Assembly: GCF_003675875.1 (NCBI RefSeq)
Contig: NZ_RCDI01000001.1
Location: 930,001 to 994,000, forward strand
Reading direction: 5' to 3'
DNA: 64,000 bases
Origin: Halostella limicola
GTDB lineage: Archaea > Halobacteriota > Halobacteria > Halobacteriales > Natronoarchaeaceae
The notes under the pieces: model-generated
Seen by the model: only the letters and a program-made list of their open reading frames with translations
Told to the model about the DNA's origin: nothing
Database searches by the model: none
Made by a program: the position numbers and the translations under genes
In this document: positions 35,615-41,731 of the stretch, one piece after another
How the letters are laid out: every line of letters begins with the position of its first letter
Position numbering within the stretch: position 1 is the first letter of the stretch

Positions 35615-38047
35615 TCACGGCCGCCGGCGTTCGAAGACGCCGGCGAGCAGTTCCCGCTGGCCGACCCGCAGGTGCTGGTGGAAGGTGGGCTGGGTGATGC
35701 CGAGCACGTCCGCGACCTCCTCGCCGTTCTGCGACCGGGGCCACTCGAAGAAGCCGCTGTGGTACGCGACCTGCAGCACCTCGCGCTGCCTGTCAGTCAG
35801 GCGCGCGGTCAGGGCCGACCACGGGTCGCCGTCCCCGTCCCCGCGGTCCGTCACGTCGCTCCGGGAGACGAGTTGCGCGCCGTCGAACCCGCTCTCGAAC
35901 CGCTCGACGAGCCGGCGGACGTCGGCGCTCTCGCGCACCTCGACGACGACCCGTCCCCGCCCGTCCTCGGCCCGCGCGGTCGACAGCGTCGCGCCGTGGT
36001 CGGCGACGTACTCGACCAGCGGGGACTCCCGGATCGCCACCTCGTACACCCGGTCGTCGCCGTCGCCGAGGTCGCGGACGCGGTCCACCGTCGACACGCC
36101 CGCCGCCCACGCGGCGACGGCTCCCTCCTCGGCGTCGTCCGCGCGGACGAACAGGTGGAGCCGGCCGTCCGACCGGAGGGAGCGCCCGACGAGTTCGACC
36201 CCGCAGCCGACCGCCTCCGAGAGGGCGACGAGCAGCGACGACGAGTCCCGCAGGGTGAACGTCAGTTCAACCGCGCCCATGTCGATCCGCGCGGAGCGGC
36301 GCTGCGCGGTGTTGATCGCGTAACCGATCGTCTCGCCGAGCTCCGCGAGCATGTCCCGCTCCCTCGGCCCGAACGCCTCGCGGGACCCCGCGTAGACGAC
36401 GAGCACGTCGTAGAGGATGTTCTGGTACGTGACGGGCACGGCGGCGACCGAGCGGTAGCCCCGCGCCCGCGCCATGTCGATCCGCTCGGCCGGGAGGTCG
36501 CTCCTGGCGACGTCGGGCACCACCGTCACGTCGCGTTCCTCGACGGTCTCGACGAGGACGGGGTCCTCGGCGACGGCTATCGGCGAGTCGGTCACGTAGC
36601 CGTCGCCCACGCCCGCCCGGAACCGCGGCGCGACGGTCCCGTCTTCGAGGTCGTAGCGGCCGAGCCACGCGAACTGGTACTGGTCGGCGGCGCCGAACTG
36701 CTCGCAGACGAGCCGCTCGATCTCCTCCCGCGTCGAGACGTGGACGAGCGCTTGGTTGACGTCCCGGATCACCTCGTTCATGTTGTTCAGCGCCTCCAGC
36801 TCGTCGCGCTGGTCGGCGAGCTGGCGCTCGCGGTCCCGGAGCAGCCGGTCCCGGTCGGCCCGGTCGAGCGCGCCGCCGACGTGGGCGGCGAGTATCTGCG
36901 CGAGGTCGCGGTCGTACCGGTCGAACCCCTCCCCGTCCGTCGCGCCGGCGTAGAGGACGCCGTGCTCGCCGAGCGGCACGCGGAGGTCGGCCGACAGGCC
37001 CTCGGGCGCGTCGTCGCCCTCGCTGAGGTCGTACCGCCGGTCGGACGACCGCGGGAAGATGAGGTCCTCGACGGCGACGTCGACGGTCAGGGCGGCGTCG
37101 CTCAGCGCCGCCCTCGCGTCGTCGGTCGCCGCGGCGGGTCGGCTCGCACCCCCGGTTTCCTCCAGGAGGTACGCCCGATTGACCGTCGCGCCGAGCAGGT
37201 CGCTCGCCGTTTCGACGGCGGTCGAGAGGACGGACTCCTTCGCCGTCATCGTCATCAGCTCCCGGGTCGTGCTCAGGAGGGCGTCCCGCGCCCGCTCGCG
37301 GCGGCGGCGCCCCGTCACGTCGCGTGCGGTGACGTACACCCGCGGTCGGCCGCCGAGGTGGATGCGCCTGAGGTTCACCTCTATCCAGACCGGATCGCCG
37401 TCCGCCCGCTCGCAGCGCCAGTCGACGACGTCGTCGGGGAGCGTCTCCCGCGACCGGAGCCACTCCGCCACGGGCGTCCCGCCGTCGTCGGGCACCGTCG
37501 CCGCCAGCGCGTCGAGCGTCAGATCGTCGTCCGACTCCGCCGAACAGCCCCACAGGGTGCAGGCGGCGGGGTTAGCGTCGACCACGTCGCCCTCGTCGTC
37601 GACGACGAACACCGGGTCGTCGACGGCGTCGAACAGCACCTCGTAGGAGCGCTGCCGCCGCCGCCCGTCGACCGCGTTCCTGATGCGGTTGGCGAGCAGT
37701 TCGTACTGGCCGGTGCCGGTCGATTTCCTGATGTAGTCCGTCGCGCCCGCGCGGATGGCCGCCGCCGCGACGCTCTCGCTCCCCTCGCCGGTGAAGAGGA
37801 CGAACGGGACGTCGGCCCGGCGCTCGCGGACGGCGTCGAGGAACTCCAGCCCGTCCATCGCCGGCATCCGGTAGTCGCTCACGACGCAGTCGACGCGCTC
37901 GCCGGCGTCCAGTCTGTCGAGGGCGTCGGCGGGCGCCGCCTCGGCGACCACCTCGATGTCCGGCTGGGTGTGTTCGAAGTGGTCGGCGACGAGCGACGTG
38001 ATCCGCTCGTTATCGTCTACGCAGAGTACTCGGATATCTGATGTCAT
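35615..38047 (-). CDS. Receiver-PAS-GAF-Bat-HTH10 transcription regulator
   Basis: An 810-residue regulator. A CheY-like receiver (1-120) has the acidic pair D11/D12, phospho-acceptor D58 (VVSDYRMPAMDG) and K108. A PAS domain (about 128-245), two GAF domains (255-390 and 425-565) and a Bat sensory domain (from about 589) follow, ending in an HTH-10 DNA-binding domain (about 750-808, LTDRQREVLQVAYHSGFFEW). The start is the ATG at 38047 because the upstream extension lacks domain content. It is divergent from the surface cluster at 38173, which makes it the best candidate for that cluster's control. The kinase at 31277 is a plausible phospho-donor. Confidence 0.92.
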   Translation of the reverse strand: MTSDIRVLCVDDNERITSLVADHFEHTQPDIEVVAEAAPADALDRLDAGERVDCVVSDYRMPAMDGLEFLDAVRERRADVPFVLFTGEGSESVAAAAIRAGATDYIRKSTGTGQYELLANRIRNAVDGRRRQRSYEVLFDAVDDPVFVVDDEGDVVDANPAACTLWGCSAESDDDLTLDALAATVPDDGGTPVAEWLRSRETLPDDVVDWRCERADGDPVWIEVNLRRIHLGGRPRVYVTARDVTGRRRRERARDALLSTTRELMTMTAKESVLSTAVETASDLLGATVNRAYLLEETGGASRPAAATDDARAALSDAALTVDVAVEDLIFPRSSDRRYDLSEGDDAPEGLSADLRVPLGEHGVLYAGATDGEGFDRYDRDLAQILAAHVGGALDRADRDRLLRDRERQLADQRDELEALNNMNEVIRDVNQALVHVSTREEIERLVCEQFGAADQYQFAWLGRYDLEDGTVAPRFRAGVGDGYVTDSPIAVAEDPVLVETVEERDVTVVPDVARSDLPAERIDMARARGYRSVAAVPVTYQNILYDVLVVYAGSREAFGPRERDMLAELGETIGYAINTAQRRSARIDMGAVELTFTLRDSSSLLVALSEAVGCGVELVGRSLRSDGRLHLFVRADDAEEGAVAAWAAGVSTVDRVRDLGDGDDRVYEVAIRESPLVEYVADHGATLSTARAEDGRGRVVVEVRESADVRRLVERFESGFDGAQLVSRSDVTDRGDGDGDPWSALTARLTDRQREVLQVAYHSGFFEWPRSQNGEEVADVLGITQPTFHQHLRVGQRELLAGVFERRRP

Positions 38048-38172
38048 AGAGAGATATTCATCGATGCTTGCCACCGAAATGTACCAGGGAGCCAAATATG
38101 TTAGGGAATATTTCAGACGTCCCTAATATAATGGCGGGAAGGTATAACCCTACATATCAGTTCTCCAGATAT
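38048..38172. promoter_or_regulatory. Promoter and operator-like region of the surface cluster
   Basis: A 125-nt AT-rich gap. GGTATAACC (38141-38149) lies about 27 nt before the ATG at 38173, a good TATA element for leaderless expression. TTAGGGA (38101-38107) and TCCCTAA (38120-38126) form a perfect 7-bp inverted repeat 20-40 nt upstream of the TATA element. The repeat could bind the divergent Bat-type regulator. Confidence 0.6.
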
Positions 38173-38730
38173 ATGCAGCGCAAAGCTGTCTTGGTAATCG
38201 GCACAGTATTGATCGCGTCGGTCGCAATGGGTTCGGCCGCGTTCACCAGCGGTAGCGTCGACCGTGCGGCCACGGTCCAAGTTGTCGGCGACGACGCGGC
38301 CGCCACCGGCCTCGCGCCGGGCGGCGGAACGAACAGCGGCGTCGTTCAGTACGACTCGAACAACCAGCTCTCGATCGACTTCTCGAACGTGAGCAGCAAC
38401 GCCGACGGCATCAACGGGAACGCTAACTACACGATCGGTGACCACTCGAGCGCGACTACCACCTACGCGTTCAACGTTACCAACAACGACGATGCCACTC
38501 ACACCTACACGCTCTCGTACGCTTTCTCCGGGTCGCCGGCTACTGACTCGAGCGTGACGTTCACGGCGTACAACAGCACGGGCTCGAAGCTCGCGACTGC
38601 CTCCGACAGTGGCTCCGGGTCGTTCGATCTGGGTAGCACGGAGACGGCCTACGTCGTGATGGAAGTCAATTCGACGGGGACGACGAGCGCTGAATCGCTC
38701 TCCGGCGACCTGACGATCACGGCGACGTAA
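38173..38730 (+). CDS. DUF1102/TasA-like secreted fibre subunit candidate
   Basis: A 185-residue exported protein with a Sec signal (RKAVLVIGTVLIASVAMGSA) and probable cleavage before AAFTSG. The start of the mature chain (FTSGSVDRAATVQVVGDD) matches the haloarchaeal DUF1102 pattern. The rest is Thr/Ser/Asn-rich beta-sandwich sequence with many N-x-S/T sites (for example NVSS, NYTI, NVTN, NSTG), so it may be N-glycosylated. There is no C-terminal membrane anchor. It is the first gene of the cluster; the signal peptidase gene follows after 25 nt. A TasA/AbpA-like subunit is my inference. Confidence 0.8.
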   Translation: MQRKAVLVIGTVLIASVAMGSAAFTSGSVDRAATVQVVGDDAAATGLAPGGGTNSGVVQYDSNNQLSIDFSNVSSNADGINGNANYTIGDHSSATTTYAFNVTNNDDATHTYTLSYAFSGSPATDSSVTFTAYNSTGSKLATASDSGSGSFDLGSTETAYVVMEVNSTGTTSAESLSGDLTITAT

Positions 38731-38755
38731 CCACGTCCCACCTCGTTTCAGACTG

Positions 38756-39823
38756 ATGTACCGTTACGTCGGCGCGGTCGTGCTGGTCGGGTTCGTGGCG
38801 CTCTCAGCGGCGACGCCGCTCGGGGCGGCCTACGTCTACTCCGACAGCATGGAGCCGACGATATCGACCGGTGACGGGTTCGTCGTCGTCCCAGCGGACG
38901 ACGCCGGCCCGGGAGACGTCGTCACTTTCTGGTCCGACCACCGCGAGGAGTACGTCACGCACCGCGTCGTCGCGGAGACGGAGTCGGGGTACGTCACGAA
39001 GGGGGACAACAACCCGATCACGGACCAGGCCGCCGGTCATCCGCCCGTTCGGCAGTCGGACGTCGAGGGGACCGTCCTGACGCTCGGCGGCGGGCCGGTG
39101 ACGGTGCCCCACGTCGGGGACGCGGTGCGGTTCGCGTCGAAGCACGCGACGGTCCTCGCGGGGGCCGGCGCCCTGTTGGTCGCCGCCCTCGTCGGTTCGT
39201 CCTCGTCCCGGTCGCGGGACGTGCTCAGCGCGCGGACGCTGTTCCGCGGGCTGATCGCCGCGAGCGTCATCGTCGGCGTCGTCGGCGTCCTGCTGACCGG
39301 CGGCACGGTGCGTTTCCCGGTCAGCGATTCCGCCGACGGAGCGACGCCGGAGACGGTAATCTTCGAGAACGACAGCGCGAACGTGACGTTATCGATGGCA
39401 TCGTCGCCGTACTCGTACCGGGCGATAGCGGCGTCCGGCGTCCGGATCGTAGACAGGTCGTCGGCGGGCGACGGGGAAGCGAAGCCCGCGGACGGCGGGG
39501 AGGCGACGACCGACGGCGGAGAAACGACCGGCGAGAAGGGGTCCGCGAACGCCGACGAAAGCGGGGCGACGACCGGCGAGGTCACGCTGACGCTCGCGAG
39601 GGACGGCTCCGGCGCGGACGCCGCGACCGTTCGGGTGTACCAGTACCCGAGGGTCCTCCCGGCGGGGATCGTCCGCGCGGCGCACGCGGTTCACCCACTG
39701 GTCGCCGCGGTACTGACGGTCGGCGTCGGGCACCTGCCGGTCGCCGCGCTGTACCTGCTGACGATAGACGGGCGAGAACCGCTGCGGTCGGGCCGCTGGC
39801 GCGGACCGCTTCGGGGGAAGTGA
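38756..39823 (+). CDS. Dedicated signal peptidase I (Ser-His type)
   Basis: A 355-residue membrane peptidase of the archaeal/ER-type S26B family. The catalytic serine is S31 (DSMEPT), the base is His69 (VTHRVV) instead of Lys, and the acidic block is KGDNNP (82-87). TM1 is near the N-terminus, and a second helix pair lies at about 130-185 (VLAGAGALLVAALVG and LIAASVIVGVVGVLL). A long Ser/Glu/Gly-rich extracellular insert and a C-terminal helix (VAAVLTVGVGHLPVAALYLL) follow, which makes it larger than housekeeping peptidases. It probably processes the neighbouring subunits, as SipW does for TasA. Confidence 0.92.
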   Translation: MYRYVGAVVLVGFVALSAATPLGAAYVYSDSMEPTISTGDGFVVVPADDAGPGDVVTFWSDHREEYVTHRVVAETESGYVTKGDNNPITDQAAGHPPVRQSDVEGTVLTLGGGPVTVPHVGDAVRFASKHATVLAGAGALLVAALVGSSSSRSRDVLSARTLFRGLIAASVIVGVVGVLLTGGTVRFPVSDSADGATPETVIFENDSANVTLSMASSPYSYRAIAASGVRIVDRSSAGDGEAKPADGGEATTDGGETTGEKGSANADESGATTGEVTLTLARDGSGADAATVRVYQYPRVLPAGIVRAAHAVHPLVAAVLTVGVGHLPVAALYLLTIDGREPLRSGRWRGPLRGK

Positions 39824-39824
39824 G

Positions 39825-40352
39825 ATGCGCCGACGCACCCGCTCCCGTCGGCGTTCGGGGCGACCCTGGCTGTCGGTGGTCGTCGTCGCGGTGACGAGCC
39901 TGCTCCTGCTGACGGCGATGCCGCCGTCGGCGTCGTTCGACACCGGATCGGTGGGACGAGGATCGGGAATCGCCGTCGCCGACGACGGGAACGCGATCCT
40001 CGGCTTGAGCAACCACTCCGCGCTGAAGACGGGGGAGACCTGCAAGCTCGTCAACGTCACCAACCGGTTCGACCGGTCGGTGACGGTCACCGTGGCGCTC
40101 CGCGAGGACTCCGAGAAGTACGGTAACCTGACGCTGGGGAACGGCCGCGAGGGGAACCAGACCAGCTTCTCGCTCGGGACCGGGATTTCGCGGACGGTCG
40201 GGCTGGAGACGGACAACGAAAGCGCCTACGACGGCGACGACGTGTACTTCCACGCCAACGCCACGGGGGACGGCGTTCGCGCCGTCGCGACGGACAGGCA
40301 CTCGACCATCGACGACGGCGCGTCCACCACGGACTGCGACATCACGCTATGA
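39825..40352 (+). CDS. Second DUF1102-like secreted subunit
   Basis: A 175-residue protein beginning 1 nt after the signal peptidase stop. It has an arginine-rich N-terminus followed by a hydrophobic signal (LSVVVVAVTSLLLLTAMPPS), with the mature start near SFDTGSVGRGSGIAVADD, the DUF1102-like beginning also seen in the first gene. The core has CKLVNVTNRFDRSVTVTV and a late Cys (TTDCDITL), so a disulphide C-C pair is possible, unlike the cysteine-free first subunit. N-glycosylation sites are frequent. The stop overlaps the next start (ATGA). Confidence 0.78.
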   Translation: MRRRTRSRRRSGRPWLSVVVVAVTSLLLLTAMPPSASFDTGSVGRGSGIAVADDGNAILGLSNHSALKTGETCKLVNVTNRFDRSVTVTVALREDSEKYGNLTLGNGREGNQTSFSLGTGISRTVGLETDNESAYDGDDVYFHANATGDGVRAVATDRHSTIDDGASTTDCDITL

Positions 40353-41731
40353 GCTGGATCGCAGCCGGACGGCTCCGGTACGAGCGGCTGGTCGCCACTC
40401 ACGGCAGGAGCGTCGTGCTCGCGCTGGCGGTGCTCGGCCTCGTCGCGGCGGGCGTCACGGCGGTCGGCGTCGCCTCGCCGCCGACGGAGACAAGCCGGAT
40501 GGCGACCGACACCGTCAGGGTCACCGCGGACGGGTCGGACTCGGCGACGGTCACCGGCGAGAGCGAACTGTACGAGCGCGGGGAGGTCGTCCGCGACAGC
40601 CCGGCGTACCTGACCGCGGCCGCGCCGAACCTCACCGTCACCGCCGAGACGAGCGTCTCCGACGGTCGGTCGGCGAACGTCACCCAGGACCTCGTGCTGA
40701 CCTACCGCGCGAAGCGCGGCGGCGAGACGTACTGGGAGGAGCCGGTTCCTATCGGGCACGCCGAGGGCGTCGCGGGCGACGACCCCGCGACGGTGTCGGC
40801 GACGGTGAACGTGGCCGACGTGCGCGACCGGATCGAGGCGATACGCGGGGAGACGGGGTCGCGGACGACCGTCAGCGCCGTCGTGGTCCACCGCGCCGCC
40901 TACGAGACGGGGAGCCGCAGCGGGGAACTGCGAAGCAGCGCGGGACTCAGCGTCGGCGACCGCTCCTACTCGCTCGGCGACGGCCTCGGTACGAGCGACA
41001 CGTACCACGACCGCGAGGTCGTCACCCGGGCCGACGAGGACCGGACGACGGCGCTGTTCGGCGTCACTGTCGCGTCGTGGTCCCTCTGGTCGGCCCCGCT
41101 GGCGCTCGGCTTCCTGCTCGGTGCCGGTCACGCTGGCGTCGTCCGGCGGCGCGGCGTCGACCCGCGAGCGGTCGAGCGCCGACTGGAGCGGGACCGGTTC
41201 GCCGAGTGGGTCTCTCACGGCGAGGTACCGGACGACGTCGCCGACCGGCGCGTCGCGATCGCCTCGCTCGCGGACCTGGTCGACGTCGCCATCGACGCCG
41301 ACCGCCGCGTCGTCTCCGACCGCCGGACGGAGCGATACGTGGTGATCGACGGGAACGTGGCGTACGTCTACGCTCCCGACGGTCCGGCGGCGGCCGAGGA
41401 CCCGACCGAGAGACCTGCCGGCGGCACGACCGACGACGCCGATCCGCTGGCGCCGGACCGCGCGGAAGCCGCTTCCGGGGGAAGCGGCGGCCGCGACCGG
41501 GACGCGCCGCGAACCGGCATCCCGGAGACTACAACTCGTTCGGCCGGGGACCGAGCGAGCGTCGAGGGGAACGGGACTGACGACGTGGCGGCACGCGAAT
41601 CAGCAGACGTCTTCGAGACGAACGACGTCTTCGTCGCGGAGGAGGGCGACGATGCGGACGCGTCCGCGGCGGGGGCCGCGGACGAGTTCGTCTGGAGCGA
41701 CCCCGCCCCGGAGAGCGACTCCGAGGCGTGA
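40349..41731 (+). CDS. DUF5305-family membrane protein of the surface cluster
   Basis: A 460-residue protein with TM1 (about 23-45, VVLALAVLGLVAAGVTAVG), an extracellular domain (about 50-225, containing many N-x-S/T sites), TM2 (about 233-260, VASWSLWSAPLALGFLLGAG) and a cytoplasmic domain with an RVVSDRRTERYVVIDGNVAYVY strand block. The last 90 residues are an acidic, low-complexity tail. This layout fits DUF5305, a family that co-occurs with signal peptidases in archaea. It overlaps the previous gene by 4 nt. A platform or anchor role for the subunits is likely but unproven. Confidence 0.83.
   Translation: MSWIAAGRLRYERLVATHGRSVVLALAVLGLVAAGVTAVGVASPPTETSRMATDTVRVTADGSDSATVTGESELYERGEVVRDSPAYLTAAAPNLTVTAETSVSDGRSANVTQDLVLTYRAKRGGETYWEEPVPIGHAEGVAGDDPATVSATVNVADVRDRIEAIRGETGSRTTVSAVVVHRAAYETGSRSGELRSSAGLSVGDRSYSLGDGLGTSDTYHDREVVTRADEDRTTALFGVTVASWSLWSAPLALGFLLGAGHAGVVRRRGVDPRAVERRLERDRFAEWVSHGEVPDDVADRRVAIASLADLVDVAIDADRRVVSDRRTERYVVIDGNVAYVYAPDGPAAAEDPTERPAGGTTDDADPLAPDRAEAASGGSGGRDRDAPRTGIPETTTRSAGDRASVEGNGTDDVAARESADVFETNDVFVAEEGDDADASAAGAADEFVWSDPAPESDSEA

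Follow-up and report, generated by a model that had tools for sequence, protein, structure and literature searches.

Here, we describe a four-gene operon in a 64,000-nucleotide stretch of the Halostella limicola genome (the window, positions 930001-994000 of contig C2 in the 4.1 Mb haloarchaeal genome G000), which is most probably an archaeal donor-strand pilus operon and a sister variant of the haloarchaeal Tafi pilus locus. It encodes, in this order, an exported subunit (subunit 1), a dedicated signal peptidase, a second exported subunit (subunit 2) and a membrane protein of the DUF5305 family. The genes themselves, their conserved order, the dedicated peptidase, the kinship of the two subunits, the predicted fold of subunit 1 with its unpaired N-terminus and the relation to the Tafi locus are all directly supported. 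The operon is well supported as a fibre locus, as a preliminary description of this DNA had proposed, and unproven in mechanism.

Subunits, peptidase and membrane protein

The four co-directional genes are borne out by the open reading frames (ORFs) of the window, all on the forward strand, at 38173-38730 (subunit 1, 185 amino acids, aa), 38756-39823 (peptidase, 355 aa), 39825-40352 (subunit 2, 175 aa) and 40349-41731 (DUF5305 protein, 460 aa). The spacing is 25 nucleotides (nt) between subunit 1 and the peptidase and 1 nt between the peptidase and subunit 2; the latter value agrees with the preliminary description, whereas the 4-nt spacing given there for the last junction is actually a 4-nt overlap (ATGA). 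Each of the two subunits has one hydrophobic N-terminal segment in the hydropathy profile, as exported proteins do.

Neither subunit matched any Pfam family at E<=1, DUF1102 included, and consequently their former designation as DUF1102-like could not be upheld. The Taf models of NCBIfam (June 2026 release) are fimbrial equivalogs with cut-offs of 155-410 bits, and among them subunit 1 resembles TafE (18.6 bits, cut-off 155) and TafA (14.9 bits, cut-off 190) while subunit 2 resembles TafC (19.8 bits, cut-off 410), all these scores being far under the cut-offs.

Besides its ORF and an alignment of 21 orthologues, subunit 1 could be characterized by an AlphaFold2 (AF2) model of the mature chain, which begins at the predicted cleavage SAA|FTSG behind a signal peptide encoded at 38173-38241 (forward strand). 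Based on an alignment of 29 sequences, the model reached a predicted local distance difference test (pLDDT) value of 84.9 and a predicted template modelling (pTM) score of 0.80; residues 1-20 are without secondary structure (pLDDT about 50), and the remainder is an all-beta sandwich. Since an unpaired N-terminal segment followed by a sandwich is expected of such a subunit, the predicted fold is of the donor-strand type, as had been anticipated.

The three best solved matches of the model are thin archaeal surface filaments, namely the AbpA bundling pilus of Pyrobaculum calidifontis (7ueg; Z 9.4, 140 residues aligned, 11% identity), the Tafi pilus of Natrinema sp. J7-2 (9p0a; Z 9.1, root-mean-square deviation 3.3, 141 residues aligned, 21% identity) and the thread of Sulfolobus acidocaldarius (Saci_0406, 7pnb; Z 8.6, 137 residues aligned, 12% identity), ahead of a fourth-ranked, unrelated protein at Z 7.6. 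P. calidifontis is a hyperthermophile from another phylum than the haloarchaea. The AbpA pilin shares with subunit 1 a sandwich with an N-terminal donor strand, which in the window protein would be the unpaired N-terminus of the model. The Sulfolobus thread is likewise built by donor-strand exchange, and signal peptidase I is the predicted processing enzyme of its subunit (PMC9715654).

At the sequence level, the profile of subunit 1 has one convincing match among solved chains, the 'Pilin' of 9p0a (E 1.5e-5), which covers the signal peptide and the mature start; 7ueg was not among the matches of this search at E<=10. In 9p0a the alignment begins with F28, just behind ..GTGA, and the counterpart of this residue is F24 of subunit 1 after SAA, that is, the A|F mature-start site of the solved pilin corresponds in the alignment to the predicted cut of subunit 1. 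The operon is also present in Haloferax mucosum (L158) and Haloferax massiliensis (L141), where the mature protein would begin at this A|F/Y site with F-T-A-A and Y-T-S-A, respectively. Subunit 1 is likely the main pilus subunit, with a putative N-terminal donor strand segment and a beta-sandwich. An in-frame upstream ATG at window position 38131 would lengthen it by 14 residues. The surrounding DNA is conserved in the locus L127 and, in part, in G144/L100, where the frame does not continue into subunit 1, and so it may be a regulatory block rather than a start.

The peptidase is of the SipW/Sec11 type and, as described before, a Ser-His enzyme: it scores above the cut-off of the archaeal signal peptidase model TIGR02228 (73.6 bits), Ser31 and His69 are invariant in an alignment of 21 orthologues, and among solved proteins it is closest in sequence to SEC11C and SEC11A. 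Hydropathy predicts four transmembrane (TM) segments and, between the third and fourth of them, an extra domain of about 130 residues (about 181-310) on the outside; this domain gave no signal of kinship with subunit 2 or DUF5305 when compared with both. That the enzyme is a housekeeping copy was considered and rejected, because a separate housekeeping-like gene is present at C2:219708 in the same genome (291 aa, one TM segment, without the extra outside domain), in contrast to the additional TM segments and outside domain of the window peptidase. The enzyme is thus dedicated to its locus, as previously supposed. A fourth, small signal-peptidase-like gene (164 aa) was noticed at about 7.2-7.7 kb of contig C8 (L009 3196-3690), which is 44.6 kb long and perhaps a plasmid.

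A profile-profile comparison with hhalign relates subunits 1 and 2 (probability 97.3, E 2e-11). In some relatives C-terminal domains are added to subunit 2; for example, the relative in the region corresponding to Haloferax mucosum (L112, L158) has a LamG domain and, with TafC, a score of 67.7 bits. Because of this occasional lectin-like domain, subunit 2 may, to judge from its sequence, be a tip adhesin or cap, and it is likely a minor subunit. The preliminary description had drawn a similar division from cysteines, which are indeed absent from subunit 1 and present twice in subunit 2 (C73 and C171). However, both are kept only in G144, the nearest of the aligned relatives, and the mature part is without cysteine in 9 of 19 subunit 2 proteins. 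A division of roles based on cysteines was accordingly rejected.

The last protein matches DUF5305 (PF17231) with 133.8 bits. The AF2 model of its residues 1-352 (pLDDT 90.3, pTM 0.56) consists of two TM helices, with a beta-sandwich domain outside the membrane (46-228) between them, and of a small cytosolic domain after the second helix, and the protein ends in a low-complexity acidic tail. The outside domain matched only generic immunoglobulin-like folds of unrelated proteins (Z up to 8.7), from which no function was inferred. From the modelled topology and the constant company of this protein, we infer that it could be an anchor or platform. DUF5305 is present in 321 of 391 sampled haloarchaeal genomes and stands beside the pilin of a solved pilus, which suggests a testable role for a common protein family. 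The literature searched yielded general papers on donor-strand assembly and on TasA, and no text naming DUF5305, DUF1102 or Taf/Tafi pili.

Conservation of the gene order

Conserved synteny in haloarchaeal genomes, which had been suggested as a check, was found in two collections that overlap in organisms, so that their counts are not additive. Set A comprises 20 regions chosen for homology to subunit 1 and mostly also to subunit 2, while the 80 named loci of set B were retrieved by their peptidase only, which makes this set the fairer test. The order subunit 1-peptidase-subunit 2-DUF5305 on one strand occurs in 18 of the 20 regions of set A, from several haloarchaeal families, and in these 18 the peptidase and subunit 2 genes overlap by 1-4 nt or abut; in L110 and L119 of the same set, subunit 2 was not detected by a simple search. 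In set B, at the thresholds used, 26 of the 80 loci have the four-gene order and another 40 combine peptidase and DUF5305 without it. Because the order recurs in this way in both sets, the arrangement is not a chance one.

The four-gene order is patchy, and most family mates of the window genome are without it. Among nine genomes of the family, a close peptidase is present only in the window genome (100%) and in G327 (80%), while the others have distant peptidases only (E 1e-20 to 1e-25) or none. The named locus nearest to the window peptidase is L127, in the metagenome-assembled genome (MAG) Halobacteriales archaeon QS_9_68_17, with 79% identity. When six flanking genes were tested, the neighbourhood was kept in this closest relative, and further out only the regulator gene had a good match in its place.

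Two loci show irregular spacing. In the uncultured archaeon A07HN63 (L155 6001-11650), the peptidase gene and the DUF5305 gene each fall into two frames, with about 2 kb before DUF5305, and in Haloquadratum walsbyi J07HQW1 (L151 8189-10515) subunit 2 is separated from DUF5305 by 2.3 kb. Both could possibly be due to insertions or assembly errors.

Relation to the Tafi pilus and other fibre systems

For the Tafi system (PDB 9p0a, released 2025-07-23), the description draws on the title of the PDB entry and on the family names in NCBIfam. Genome G092 encodes a pilin that is identical to 9p0a along 172 residues and is followed on one strand by a CARDB protein, a 392-aa peptidase and DUF5305. The same type of arrangement is present in the genus mate G053 and also in the window genome itself, on contig C4 at about 255.2-259.3 kb (L007 5232-9315), with products of 178 aa (subunit), 385 aa (CARDB protein), 373 aa (peptidase) and 383 aa (DUF5305 protein); the profile of this subunit matches 9p0a with E 2.6e-13. 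Since the locus of the Tafi pilus is related to that of the window and likewise includes DUF5305 and this type of peptidase, the window locus is not a wholly undescribed machine, for which it was the best candidate in the preliminary description.

Then, could the window locus be a plain Tafi pilus locus, the same machine with its genes trivially rearranged? Both loci are one-strand clusters with a SipW-like multi-TM peptidase and DUF5305, the peptidase and DUF5305 families are shared, the subunits are related, the predicted fold of subunit 1 being similar to the solved Tafi pilin and the mature starts corresponding, and the taxonomic ranges overlap. However, the order differs, with the second subunit of the window following the peptidase, and the CARDB protein with a C-terminal TM segment that lies between pilin and peptidase in G092, G053 and on C4 has no equivalent between 38730 and 38756. 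In a tree of 84 peptidases, moreover, the clade of the four-gene type (32 rows, and one Halorarius row with a different gene order) splits from the Tafi-type and other rows at 100/99. In addition, the scores with the Taf models are far too low, and the window genome holds both loci. We therefore regard trivial rearrangement as rather unlikely. The separate peptidase clade, the missing CARDB gene and the domain-variable second subunit downstream of the peptidase mark the window locus as a sister variant beside the Tafi-type locus, and not the Tafi locus itself.

The gene logic also resembles that of the bacterial TasA/TapA/SipW system, in which a dedicated SipW-type peptidase is located beside fibre subunits; TasA fibres are formed by donor-strand assembly (PMC9674648). 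The earlier comparison with TasA/SipW holds as an analogy of gene logic only. The window peptidase misses the cut-off of the SipW equivalog (NF046067; 45.1 vs 190 bits). A direct counterpart acquired from bacteria could be imagined from the subunit-peptidase-subunit arrangement, the weak SipW match and one contig of a Tissierellia (Bacillota) MAG (L165 184-2053), on which a subunit-1-like protein precedes a similar signal peptidase. It is very improbable nonetheless, because the archaeal signal peptidase model outscores the SipW model, subunit 1 has its best matches, both in sequence and in fold, among archaeal proteins, and the Tissierellia row stands on a long branch on the Tafi-type side of the peptidase tree. 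TasA appeared neither in the Pfam search with the subunits nor among the listed fold matches of subunit 1, although such a list decides nothing. To our knowledge, no DUF5305 protein occurs in the bacterial system.

Proposed mechanism and alternatives

The following mechanism could be proposed for the donor-strand pilus; strand exchange and the formation of a fibre are inferred in it, as are the parts played by subunit 2, DUF5305 and the extra peptidase domain. Both subunits would be exported and cut after a short A-x-A-like motif by the membrane-bound Ser-His peptidase of the operon. The cut would free an N-terminal segment, beginning with F-T-S-G in subunit 1, which would complete the open beta-sandwich of the adjacent subunit, and subunit 1 would in this way polymerize into a thin fibre. 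Subunit 2, with its species-variable and sometimes lectin-like C-terminus, would be a minor subunit and would more likely serve as tip adhesin or cap than make up most of the fibre, and DUF5305, perhaps together with the extra outside domain of the peptidase, would hold and terminate the fibre at the membrane.

Several points weigh against this interpretation. The fibre and its putative donor-strand fit are predictions from the genes and from a single-chain model of subunit 1. The structural matches are modest (Z 8.6-9.4), the best Foldseek E value is 3.4e-3 (Sulfolobus thread), and the sandwich of subunit 2 rests on its profile match to subunit 1. Furthermore, 14 of the 80 loci of set B fit neither of the two arrangements, and thus subunits, peptidase and DUF5305 are separable. 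Some of these points would suit another explanation, in which the exported proteins are monomeric or associated with the surface layer and are matured by a dedicated peptidase, with DUF5305 as a sensor or anchor: beta-sandwich domains are common, many unrelated folds matched at Z 5-7.6, and exported proteins matching subunit 1, mostly weakly, were found in 133 of 292 haloarchaeal genomes. Nevertheless, archaeal filaments hold the first three places in the fold comparison and lie above the next row, the sequence match of subunit 1 is a solved pilin, and its predicted N-terminus is unpaired as expected for a fibre subunit. Consequently, we consider the monomeric alternative improbable.

Going further than the donor-strand pilus operon as such, the four-gene order might represent a donor-strand pilus machine of its own, mobile and present side by side with Tafi, in which the four-TM peptidase, with its extra outside domain, and DUF5305 form a platform in the membrane for maturing and feeding the subunits. 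Subunit 2 would then be an exchangeable tip adhesin, with the adhesion target determined by its C-terminal domain. This is a tentative proposal, and somewhat doubtful as a whole. The presence of two loci in one genome, one of them patchy, would allow two pilus machines to be compared directly, and the domain-swapping subunit 2 suggests how cells might change their adhesion targets.

Candidate regulator and intergenic region

Upstream of the operon, a divergent gene on the reverse strand (35615-38047) encodes a Bat-type protein with receiver, PAS, GAF, BAT and HTH_10 domains (Pfam) and is a candidate regulator of the operon. A Bat-type regulator also adjoins the cluster in L127 (85% identical) and in G144/L100 (50%). 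Near loci with a short subunit 2, an HTH_10 regulator was found in 7 of 12 cases, compared with 2 of 53 among the other types of locus (Fisher p 3.5e-5). Because the loci were divided by subunit 2 length only once the data had been seen and the genome has 43 HTH_10 genes, this association is a lead only.

The region between the two divergent genes (38048-38172) is AT-rich (GC 0.416) and likely contains divergent promoters. Within it, the inverted repeat TTAGG-N16-CCTAA at 38101-38126, found with the same spacing in L127, is a possible operator, to judge from the sequence.

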